Source: Spirochaetaceae bacterium (GTDB taxonomy: Bacteria > Spirochaetota > Spirochaetia > B11-G9). Taken from it: a DNA stretch of 34,368 nt. Position numbers and translations under genes: made by a program. The notes under the pieces were generated by a model. That model was not told the DNA's origin, did not search any database, and was given only the letters and a program-made list of their open reading frames with translations. The DNA lies in assembly GCA_015493635.1 (NCBI GenBank), contig WGCU01000099.1, positions 1 to 34,368 on the forward strand, in the 5' to 3' direction. This document shows positions 17,449 through 34,368 of the stretch, piece by piece (position 1 is the stretch's first letter; every line of letters begins with the position of its first letter).

Positions 17449-17476
17449 AAAAAAAACTGCCCTGAAACAGGGCAGT
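17449..17476 (-). terminator. Rho-independent terminator of hsp20
   Basis: A 9-bp perfect stem (ACTGCCCTG / CAGGGCAGT, 17456-17476) with a 3-nt loop is followed, reading the minus strand, by eight consecutive T. It begins 5 bp after the hsp20 stop codon. Confidence 0.92.
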
Positions 17477-17481
17477 TCATA

Positions 17482-17898
17482 TTATGCGGCTTTTATTTTT
17501 ATTGATTTTGGTTTTTTCTCCGGTTTCTTACTGATTTCAAGGGAGAGAACACCGTTTTTAAATGTTCCGGTAATAGAATCAGCATCCGCATCTTCAGGGA
17601 GAATAAAGTTTCTGGAAAATGAGTAGCTGCTACGTTCACGAATCAGGTATGTATCTTTCTTTTCTTCCTTTTTCTCTTCTTTTACTGTTGAGATAAAGAG
17701 ATTCCGGTTCTCAACCTTTACCTCTACATCTTTCTCTGTTAATCCGGGAAGCTCCGCCTCAATAACGTAGCTGTTTTCATTTTCCTTGATATCGACATTG
17801 GGTATGCGTGTTTGTAACCTGTCAGTACCAAAGAATTCTTCCATGGATCTGTCAAAATCTCTGAAAAAATCTGTCGGTCTTTTTGCTAAATATGTCAT
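17482..17898 (-). CDS. Hsp20-family small heat-shock protein
   Basis: This is an ATP-independent holdase chaperone that forms oligomers and keeps unfolding proteins soluble. The 138-aa protein has a short N-terminal arm (FFRDFDRSMEEFF), an alpha-crystallin domain (about 35-125: PNVDIKENENSYVIEAELPG, then FILPEDADADSI, then GTFKNGVLSLEI) and the C-terminal I-x-I tail motif (IKI). A strong GGAGGTG ribosome-binding site precedes the ATG. It is monocistronic, with its own terminator and an exact sigma-54-type promoter 44 bp upstream of the start codon. No CIRCE element (TTAGCACTC-N9-GAGTGCTAA) was found, so HrcA control is not indicated. Confidence 0.96.
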   Translation of the reverse strand: MTYLAKRPTDFFRDFDRSMEEFFGTDRLQTRIPNVDIKENENSYVIEAELPGLTEKDVEVKVENRNLFISTVKEEKKEEKKDTYLIRERSSYSFSRNFILPEDADADSITGTFKNGVLSLEISKKPEKKPKSIKIKAA

Positions 17899-17941
17899 AA
17901 TACACCTCCGTATTTGGTTTTTTATGTTTCATCTATAATAA

Positions 17942-17957
17942 AGCAAAAAGTGTGCCA
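17942..17957 (-). promoter_or_regulatory. Sigma-54 (RpoN) -24/-12 promoter of hsp20
   Basis: On the minus strand the sequence is TGGCAC-ACTTT-TTGCT. It matches the consensus TGGCACR-N4-TTGCW at every defined position, with the invariant GG and GC dinucleotides correctly spaced. The start point would be near 17931, giving a 33-nt leader that contains the GGAGG site. Sigma-54 promoters need an ATP-driven enhancer-binding activator, which fits the dyads upstream. Confidence 0.8.
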
Positions 17958-18005
17958 AAAATCAGTTTATATATAAATGTATGTATTATAAAGAATTATA
18001 TAGTA

Positions 18006-18023
18006 TTTGAATTTGTATTCAAA
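18006..18023. promoter_or_regulatory. Dyad A upstream of hsp20
   Basis: Perfect inverted repeat TTTGAAT-TTGT-ATTCAAA (7-bp arms, 4-bp spacer), centred about 84 bp upstream of the inferred sigma-54 start. It lies beside an AT-rich stretch (17963-18005) that could bend. Its half-site differs from dyads B and C, so it may bind another protein or be chance in AT-rich DNA. Confidence 0.35.
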
Positions 18024-18040
18024 CAGTGTTGTTCTGATAG

Positions 18041-18057
18041 TGAGTCAAGCTGACTCA
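18041..18057. promoter_or_regulatory. Dyad B, candidate enhancer-binding-protein site
   Basis: Perfect 17-bp dyad TGAGTCA-AGC-TGACTCA, centred about -118 from the inferred hsp20 start. It shares the 7-3-7 layout and most half-site bases (TG-W-R-TCA) with dyad C, which is centred exactly 40 bp away. Confidence 0.55.
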
Positions 18058-18080
18058 TGGAGTCAAAACCATATTTTTAT

Positions 18081-18097
18081 TGTATCAAAATGATACA
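18081..18097. promoter_or_regulatory. Dyad C, candidate enhancer-binding-protein site
   Basis: Perfect 17-bp dyad TGTATCA-AAA-TGATACA, centred about -158 from the inferred hsp20 start and 5 bp past the patatin-gene stop. It has no T-run on the minus strand, so a terminator role for the patatin gene is weak. Its similarity to dyad B supports a paired operator or enhancer. Confidence 0.5.
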
Positions 18098-18102
18098 TAT
18101 AA

Positions 18103-20319
18103 TCATTGTGCAAACCCGACAGTGAGGTGATACAGAAGTCCGCCGGTAAACGTTGAATATAACGCGGACAACTCTACCGGTCCGATAATACTGTTGTAAT
18201 TGTATTTTATACCGATTCCAGCAGGATAAGCGGAAAAATTCAGTAAATTTTCCATGGAGTTATCCGTGTTTCCGGCACTGAAGAACAGGGAGAGAAATTG
18301 GCTTGCTGATAGTTTGTATCTGAAAGAAAGATTCAACGCCAGAGCATTGGAACCGGCCAAATCAAAATGATGCAGAGGACTCAAAGGAATATTACCGAAG
18401 AGAGGGTAAGAAGTAATATCGCCAAGATAGAAATACTGGGATAGGGGTACGTTGATTCCATCTGAAAGACCAAGGGAAAATGAAGGCTCAATTGTAAAAC
18501 GGTTAAACAGGGTATATGAATAGTTACCGTCCAATCTTCCAAGAACAGAATGAGGAAAGCTGCTCTCCTGGAGATCAAAACCGGGGTTGAAGTTGTACAG
18601 ATATTTGGCTCTTATAGTAAAAAAAAGCCCGCGGGTAGGAAAGAGGGGGTCATCCCGGGTATCCGCTTTAAGGTAAATTTCAGGTTGAAAAATAACCTCG
18701 GATAAATCTGCAGCATTGATATACGTATAGTTAATACCTGCTCTTACCTCGAAGAGCAGAGAACCTGCTATTTCAGATTGTGCATATACAGTAAGGTTCA
18801 ATAAGGAATAGTTAAATGGAAAGGAATGTAATACCGTATCGGAGCTGTAGAGGTTTATATTCAAACGGGAAGCATCGAGGGATATCCCTACTGCCGGTGT
18901 GAGCTTTTTCATTGTTGCAGGGAAAAATTCATAGGACAGTGCTGCTGAAGGATTTTGTGAAAGCTGACCGGAAAAGGAGAGCTTTGCATTCGGGATAAGA
19001 AAATTGAGTGAAGTAAATTTAAAAGGTAAAACAGCCTGATATTCTGTATCATACTGTACCCCCACTTTAAAAAATGTTTCACTCTTTTCCTTGAGCCTGA
19101 TTATCAGAATATTTTTAGTACCTTGTTTTATAATTTTATAATTGACATATTTGAAATACCCTGTTCCGTAAAGCTTGGACAAAGCTGATGTTAGACTGTC
19201 CCTCGTACAGCTCTTCCCTGTGGTGCATGAAAGATACTTTCGGACAAAGGAAGAGCTTATGTGTGACAGCCCCTTTATTGTGATGCTGTCGAATTTCAAT
19301 GAAGTTTTTACCGGAGCTGCGGTTCTTTTCCCTTGAGGAGGATACTTACGGTAAAACCGGGCAAGCAGCTGGATCTCGGAGCGTTTTTTTTCCGCTGCGG
19401 TTTCTCCGCTTGCAATAATTCCCCTGTATTTATTAAAACTAAAGAGACCGTATGAAGATACATCCGGTTCAATGAGAATATCACAGAGTTTTTTTGTCTT
19501 CTGATAACGGTCAAAAGCACTGAGGAACATGGTTTGTGTCAGTACATTCGTTAGTGTGGTAAGTTCTTTCTTTGCTCTTATGCCGGTGAATGAACCAATA
19601 ATTATATCAGGATGAAAAATTTTCTGCATCAGGTCGGTAGGAAAGTTGTCCCGTATGCCGCCGTCAATGTAGGGAACACCATCAATGCTTTTGGGAGTAA
19701 AAACCGAGGGTATTGCCATGCTTGCACGGACTGCATCGGGAAGGTATCCTTCTGTAAAGATCTTTGTTTTCCCATTTTCGAGATTTACTGCAACACAAAA
19801 AAACGGAATAGGCAGTTTTTTAAAATCATGAATACCGTATGACTGCCAGGCTTCATAGTAGTTGAGGAGTTCCATAATGTGCTGTCCGCCGATAAGGGCC
19901 CCCGGAAGAATAAATTTCCTGTTTTTCAGGGAAAACTCCATGAAATACTTTCCTGCATCCGTTTTTTCAGACATGGGTGTATTTCTGTATGTAACCCTGT
20001 TACTGATTATGGAATCCCAGTTTTGGCTGTATACTATATTCTGTATTTCGTCCGCGCTGTATCCCAGGGCATAGAGACTTCCGATAATACTGCCCATGCT
20101 TGTTCCTGCAATATAATCAGGCCGAATCCCCTCTTTTTCCAGGTAGTGTAATACACCGATATGTGCAAAGCCTTTTGCGCTGCCGCCGCTGAGAACAAGC
20201 CCTACTGTTGGACGGTGCTGTAGCGCGGAGAGTTTTTTCCTTAAATCGCCATCCAGAGAAAAGAGCGATGCATGGATACATACAATCCCCGTGAGAAGGA
20301 AGAGAAGAATTCTTTTCAT
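18103..20319 (-). CDS. Patatin-like phospholipase with POTRA and outer-membrane beta-barrel (type Vd autotransporter-like)
   Basis: The 738-aa precursor has a signal peptide (about 1-21). A patatin domain follows with oxyanion loop GGSAKG (45-50), nucleophile GTSMG (Ser74) and DGG dyad residue (Asp219 in YIDGG). From about 345 to 415 there is one POTRA-like domain (FDSITIKGLSHISSSFVRKY ... YFKYVNYKIIKQ). Residues about 420-738 are an Omp85/BamA-type barrel with alternating strands and the TRDDPLFPTRGLFF motif typical of the superfamily. This is the architecture of PlpD-like proteins: a lipase delivered to or through the outer membrane. It ends in LTVGFAQ rather than a terminal aromatic residue. 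The start overlaps the stop of the upstream hydrolase (ATGA), so they form one operon. Confidence 0.9.
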   Translation of the reverse strand: MKRILLFLLTGIVCIHASLFSLDGDLRKKLSALQHRPTVGLVLSGGSAKGFAHIGVLHYLEKEGIRPDYIAGTSMGSIIGSLYALGYSADEIQNIVYSQNWDSIISNRVTYRNTPMSEKTDAGKYFMEFSLKNRKFILPGALIGGQHIMELLNYYEAWQSYGIHDFKKLPIPFFCVAVNLENGKTKIFTEGYLPDAVRASMAIPSVFTPKSIDGVPYIDGGIRDNFPTDLMQKIFHPDIIIGSFTGIRAKKELTTLTNVLTQTMFLSAFDRYQKTKKLCDILIEPDVSSYGLFSFNKYRGIIASGETAAEKKRSEIQLLARFYRKYPPQGKRTAAPVKTSLKFDSITIKGLSHISSSFVRKYLSCTTGKSCTRDSLTSALSKLYGTGYFKYVNYKIIKQGTKNILIIRLKEKSETFFKVGVQYDTEYQAVLPFKFTSLNFLIPNAKLSFSGQLSQNPSAALSYEFFPATMKKLTPAVGISLDASRLNINLYSSDTVLHSFPFNYSLLNLTVYAQSEIAGSLLFEVRAGINYTYINAADLSEVIFQPEIYLKADTRDDPLFPTRGLFFTIRAKYLYNFNPGFDLQESSFPHSVLGRLDGNYSYTLFNRFTIEPSFSLGLSDGINVPLSQYFYLGDITSYPLFGNIPLSPLHHFDLAGSNALALNLSFRYKLSASQFLSLFFSAGNTDNSMENLLNFSAYPAGIGIKYNYNSIIGPVELSALYSTFTGGLLYHLTVGFAQ

Positions 20320-34334: not shown

Positions 34335-34368
34335 ATGAATCAAATTGATAGACTCAATGAATTACAAA
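34335..34368 (+). CDS. Start of a gene running off the window
   Basis: An ATG at 34335 is preceded by GGAGGGG at 34325-34331 and a promoter about 50 bp upstream. Eleven full codons are visible (MNQIDRLNELQ), which is too few to name a family. Confidence 0.6.
   Translation, partial: MNQIDRLNELQ

Follow-up and report, generated by a model that had tools for sequence, protein, structure and literature searches.

A sigma-54 promoter of hsp20 in Spirochaetia with paired upstream dyads, the probable DNA target of an Rrp2-type regulator

Across the Spirochaetia, the small heat-shock gene hsp20 is almost always preceded by a sigma-54 promoter with paired dyads upstream, and the same arrangement is found at a gene for a sigma-70-family factor. 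It is very likely that the hsp20 promoter is switched on by an Rrp2-type regulator acting through these paired dyads, and that this control is shared with the sigma-70-family gene. On the comparative sequence evidence presented here, the dyads are probably the DNA site, so far missing, of the regulator that is known as Rrp2 from Lyme-disease bacteria. The window, that is the whole analysed stretch of 34,368 nucleotides, belongs to a 3.27-Mb metagenome assembly from the Spirochaetia (G000), and the closest named relatives of its Hsp20 protein come from Spirochaetales and Treponema. RpoN, whose presence in the genome the earlier note had left to be checked, is encoded there (PF04552 match, E=2.2e-56).

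From the letters of the window alone, the earlier note had read an exact sigma-54 -24/-12 box on the minus strand, a leader of 33 nt, two perfect 7-3-7 dyads centred 40 bp apart at -118 and -158, and an AT-rich stretch between dyads and promoter. All of these are found where it had placed them (Table 1). The distances -118 and -158 and the start site near 17931 assume that the C of the -12 GC element is position -12.

Table 1. Features of the hsp20 promoter region and its surroundings in the window.
Feature	Position	Strand	Basis
Likely intrinsic terminator of hsp20, hairpin AACTGCCCTG-TTT-CAGGGCAGTT and then a T run	17455..17477	-	sequence reading
hsp20, 138-aa small heat-shock protein with alpha-crystallin domain	17482..17898	-	Pfam HSP20 E=6e-27, ORF list
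Predicted 33-nt hsp20 leader, start site near 17931	17899..17931	-	inferred from position of the -12 element
Good ribosome-binding site of hsp20, GGAGGTG	17903..17909	-	sequence reading
Sigma-54 -24/-12 promoter TGGCACACTTTTTGCT	17942..17957 (17957-17942)	-	sequence; class-wide conservation
AT-rich stretch from promoter to enhancer	17958..18040	.	sequence reading
Proximal enhancer dyad TGAGTCA-AGC-TGACTCA	18041-18057, centre 18049, about -118	.	sequence; PWM 11.6 bits
Possible weak middle half-site TTTTGACTCC	18059..18068	-	full-site PWM -0.8; position suggested by relatives
Distal enhancer dyad TGTATCA-AAA-TGATACA	18081-18097, centre 18089, about -158	.	sequence; PWM 17.0 bits
Gene upstream of hsp20, for a patatin-like phospholipase with a fused POTRA/Omp85 barrel	18103..20319	- (as hsp20)	domain matches

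The promoter TGGCACACTTTTTGCT contains the -24 GG and -12 GC elements at the exact spacing of sigma-54 promoters. It is the sole match to TGGCAC-N5-TTGCW in the window, where 0.03 would be expected; the entire genome has just one other exact match. The dyad pattern TGWRTCA-N3-TGAYWCA is similarly rare: the two dyads, both perfect inverted repeats, are its only matches in the window (0 in 100 shuffles), and the genome holds three, two of them upstream of the window hsp20. The third (C87:4158) lies inside a coding sequence and was rejected as a regulatory site. The proximal dyad, GC-rich at its centre, gets a lower score than the distal one, and the possible half-site TTTTGACTCC between them falls where many relatives carry a third site in a 22+18 bp arrangement. 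Because a terminator-like hairpin with a T run follows the gene, hsp20 is probably transcribed alone. The patatin/POTRA/Omp85 gene ends 5 bp from the distal dyad; it is outside the hsp20 regulatory unit, since the neighbours of hsp20 vary between genomes. No activator gene was found beside hsp20 in the flanks of the locus. At the far end of the window (34336-34352) lies a 17-mer, TGAATCAAATTGATAGA, with at least 10 further occurrences. Most of these are close to the ends of contigs, so the 17-mer may belong to a repeated element at assembly breaks.

Promoter and dyads, which the earlier note had wanted followed into relatives, are both kept there. The comparison covers hsp20 orthologues from 59 relatives and from named records, with conservation judged over roughly 50 relatives that represent some 30 families; the relatives are non-independent samples, and box and motif searches use consensus thresholds. 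The strict pattern TGGCAY-N6-TGCW is present upstream of hsp20 in 33 of 35 spirochaete loci, at a distance of 53 to 133 nt from the start codon; in the remaining two the box is one base off the strict pattern. In total, the pattern matches 34 times in the 264 kb of these loci, both strands included. Nineteen of 20 further hsp20 loci also carry the box, the exception being a Borrelia-like genome (G026), and it is absent at both non-spirochaete hsp20 loci inspected (L005, L008). Run without a prior on the regions upstream of the hsp20 box, a de novo search for palindromic motifs yielded TGtGTCAtaaTGACaCA with a log-likelihood of 443, compared with 72-152 for shuffled sequences. The class-wide dyad consensus is TGtGTCA-WWW-TGACaCA, 17 bp in length. 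A specific half-site, as the earlier note had proposed, is strongly supported, but it is better written TGtGTCA, since the proposed TGWRTCA came from two sites only. At hsp20, most genomes have the outer dyads 40 bp apart, in arrays of two full sites or of three at intervals of 22+18 or 20+20 bp. The dyads lie some 80-180 bp upstream of the hsp20 promoter. In Treponema most sites appear when the view reaches further upstream; some loci of this genus have one recognisable site only, and L007 has none. In the closest relative (G003), a contig fragment (L159) still carries the box together with a dyad.

The same combination of dyads and sigma-54 box stands before a second gene. In two small genomes (G018 and G043), where all TGGCAY-N6-TGCW sites were considered, dyad pairs occur only before hsp20 and before a sigma-70-family gene; other dyad matches in these genomes are few, single and weak (below 10 bits). 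The product of the sigma-70-family gene has 284-290 aa in these two genomes. Of 59 genomes, 54 carry the gene, and 47 of 54 distinct upstream regions contain the -24/-12 pattern. Its promoters were outside the motif training. They nevertheless contain 93 dyad sites that score 12 bits or more, where 0.4 would be expected, and 43 of the 57 distances from one site to another come to exactly 40 bp. Identity is 65% among the sites and 31% among the 23-bp spacers between them, about what composition gives (0.306 vs 0.281 expected). The spacing is thus conserved though the spacer sequence varies, which argues for function and bears out the significance that had been attached to the distance of 40 bp at hsp20. 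In the genome of the window, the regulon was delimited by searching for the -24/-12 consensus, which gave 22 sigma-54-like boxes. Dyads precede three of them, so the genome-wide search that the earlier note had suggested adds two probable targets to the window hsp20. One is a tandem pair of further hsp20 genes (C2:8874-9724, L310), with the sigma-54 box TGGCATAATTTATGCA and the dyad-like site TGGATCGATTTGACACA. The other is the sigma-70-family gene (C55:25546-26449, L261/L318), which carries a sigma-54 box with one or more dyads and lies near an Rrp2 orthologue.

This Rrp2-type regulator on C55 consists of a receiver, an AAA+ domain with a GSFTGA loop, and a Fis-type HTH. It is encoded in an operon-like cluster in the order murG, cvpA-like, holB, PAS histidine kinase, regulator, and the sigma gene lies a few kilobases from the kinase/regulator pair in this and several other genomes. 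The order murG-cvpA-holB-kinase-regulator is also found in G018 and in the Borrelia-like G026, and in part in others; in G026 the rpoS gene belongs to the same run. The C55 regulator is 55-56% identical to its orthologue in the Borrelia-like genomes G026 and G048, where that protein is the sole activator. As judged from sequence and from this gene order, the C55 kinase and regulator are orthologues of Borrelia HK2 and Rrp2. That G026 is Borrelia-like we infer from its single activator among other features, in agreement with the published status of Rrp2 as the sole sigma-54 activator in Borrelia (PMC11109971) and with the published gene order, in which flgI and flgJ precede rpoS and rrp2 is the last gene of a putative rpoS operon (PMC1976401). 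Four NtrC-family proteins of the window's genome (L095, L096, L100, L106) have altered GAFTGA loops (GAFTNA, GSFTSA, GAFTDA) and may therefore be non-functional with sigma-54. We take AtcR of T. denticola to be a LytTR-type regulator. It was rejected as the identity of the C55 regulator; a literature search found AtcR in AtcS and LytTR contexts only.

The Rrp2-linked sigma factor on C55 is not RpoS. This assignment was rejected on the basis of a tree and of gene order, which place the C55 protein in a separate group and make a gene on C74, downstream of flgJ (L338:147-983), the orthologue of Borrelia RpoS, with 42% identity. The promoter of this rpoS gene has a sigma-54 box, TGGCATGAATCCTGCA, and no dyads. 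The -24/-12 box is present at flgJ-linked rpoS orthologues in 29 of 30 genomes, and no real dyads were found at these promoters in the 30 genomes, the lone 12-bit match overlapping the box. Because of this distribution, enhancer-less sigma-54 control of rpoS is, as far as sequence comparison can tell, old and general. Such a pattern fits the published enhancer-independent activation in B. burgdorferi, where Rrp2 needs no enhancer to activate rpoS and does not bind specifically near this gene, and where gel shifts and promoter deletions both failed to find an Rrp2 DNA site (PMC1976401). B. burgdorferi Rrp2 is needed for rpoS expression and is reported to be essential for viability. Compared with the Rrp2-RpoN-RpoS pathway of B. 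burgdorferi, the system described here is alike in its orthologous kinase and NtrC-family regulator (about 56% identity, gene order), in a sigma-54-dependent sigma-factor target, and in the sole-activator status seen in G026 and G048. It is unlike that pathway in having enhancer dyads and in its targets, hsp20 and a second sigma gene. In the Borrelia-like genomes hsp20 is without a sigma-54 box and rpoS without dyads, and dyad-type targets are missing in such form. A recognition-helix change from HRK to HNK was rejected as the cause of enhancer loss in Borrelia; G021 has HNK and a strong hsp20 dyad. Beside the flgF-flgG-flgJ-rpoS cluster of the window's genome lies an ORF for a tyrosine-recombinase-like integrase (L338:3392-4741).

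Which protein occupies the dyads has to be weighed against the number of candidates. The window's genome encodes 12 sigma-54 activators with strong AAA+ matches, dyad binding by the C55 regulator is a prediction, and another activator could share the site in this genome. That promoter and enhancer are real and a different NtrC-family protein among the 12 binds the dyads is nevertheless unlikely. The C55 regulator is the only one of them with reciprocal best matches in 14 of 14 relatives profiled (54-74% identity), whereas the remaining activators are without such a match in several dyad-bearing genomes. Moreover, four genomes with dyads at hsp20, at the sigma gene or at both (G018, G043, G013 and G038, the sites in the last being weak) have a single activator each, the C55 orthologue, and the other sigma-54 promoters of the window's genome, several of which adjoin other activators, are without dyads. 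By elimination, the C55 regulator is thus the candidate for the dyad-binding activator. The earlier note had gone further and suggested a dedicated sigma-54 activator for protein-folding or envelope stress. A specific activator is strongly supported; the 'dedicated' stress wording is unsupported, because the regulon also appears to include a sigma-factor gene. The likely activator is an old NtrC-family regulator present throughout the class.

The dyads might instead bind an unrelated repressor or activator, of the heat-shock or redox type, while the sigma-54 activator works from solution. There is precedent for the latter in the enhancer-free activation of rpoS by B. burgdorferi Rrp2 (PMC1976401), and flgJ-linked rpoS promoters are without dyads in 29-30 of 30 genomes. 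However, the hsp20 dyads lie upstream in the usual range of activators and not over the promoter, and dyads track the sigma-54 promoters of two unrelated genes at fixed spacing. The CIRCE element (TTAGCACTC-N9-GAGTGCTAA), which would point to CIRCE/HrcA control, is absent near the hsp20 promoter at up to three mismatches, as the earlier note had claimed. We therefore regard an unrelated regulator as highly improbable. Viewed alone, two dyads in one AT-rich gap could also coincide by chance, or represent terminator or palindromic noise beside a fortuitous -24/-12 match. This explanation has a negligible probability and is refuted by the comparative data: besides the result of the shuffles, motif and spacing are kept class-wide while the spacers are randomised.

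If the Rrp2-type regulator acts at the dyads, activation of hsp20 would proceed as follows. In response to an inducing signal, the kinase or another phosphate donor would phosphorylate the regulator, and its dimers would bind both 17-bp dyads via the Fis-type HTH. The spacing of 40 bp, or about four turns, would set the dyads near the same face of the DNA. Once assembled, the AAA+ ring would loop to the closed sigma-54 polymerase complex at 17942-17957 and open the promoter by ATP hydrolysis, so that hsp20 would be expressed and the sigma factor made in parallel. The same regulator and site array would control the sigma-70-family gene near the regulator and the tandem hsp20 pair.

Among the closest known systems, an architectural parallel is the NtrC/glnA enhancer of enteric bacteria, which likewise combines a receiver-AAA+-Fis-HTH activator with 7-3-7 dyads of 17 bp that lie over 80 bp upstream of a -24/-12 promoter. 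The NtrC site is TGCACCA-N3-TGGTGCA. In contrast, the half-site here is TGtGTCA and not TGCACCA, the spacing is fixed at 40 bp, and a chaperone and a sigma factor are targeted rather than nitrogen genes. The new element is an NtrC-type enhancer that has a half-site of its own, keeps one spacing and serves a chaperone together with a sigma factor. For small heat-shock genes as such, control by sigma-54 has precedents. The ibpAB genes of E. coli, distant relatives of the hsp20 studied here, also use sigma-32, which sets them apart. A sigma-54 promoter, as at hsp20, is reported for E. coli ibpB (cited in PMC4370416). A survey predicts sigma-54 control of IbpA-type genes, with a heat-shock cluster enriched in Bacteroidota and Planctomycetota; Spirochaetia are unlisted there for the heat-shock cluster (PMC12316311). 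Our literature search found no paper on sigma-54 control of hsp20 in spirochaetes and no description of an Rrp2-family binding site, which is weak evidence, as most subscription journals are outside its coverage.

It seems reasonably likely that TGtGTCA-WWW-TGACaCA is the ancestral target of the Rrp2 family, with a core regulon in Spirochaetia made up of hsp20 and the Rrp2-linked sigma-70-family gene and controlled via 40-bp pairs. Enhancer-less control of rpoS would then be a separate old branch, and Borrelia would have lost the enhancer targets and kept the rpoS branch and the HTH. If this is true, the loss of enhancer-bearing targets in Borrelia would explain why an Rrp2 site could not be found there. 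The concrete site and spacing rules are testable on Rrp2-type proteins and can be used to seek sites in pathogenic spirochaetes. The system also provides an example of an enhancer in which a spacing of 40 bp stays constant while the spacer sequence is randomised. For their small heat-shock gene, the Spirochaetia as a class would have in it another mode of control in place of sigma-32 or CIRCE.
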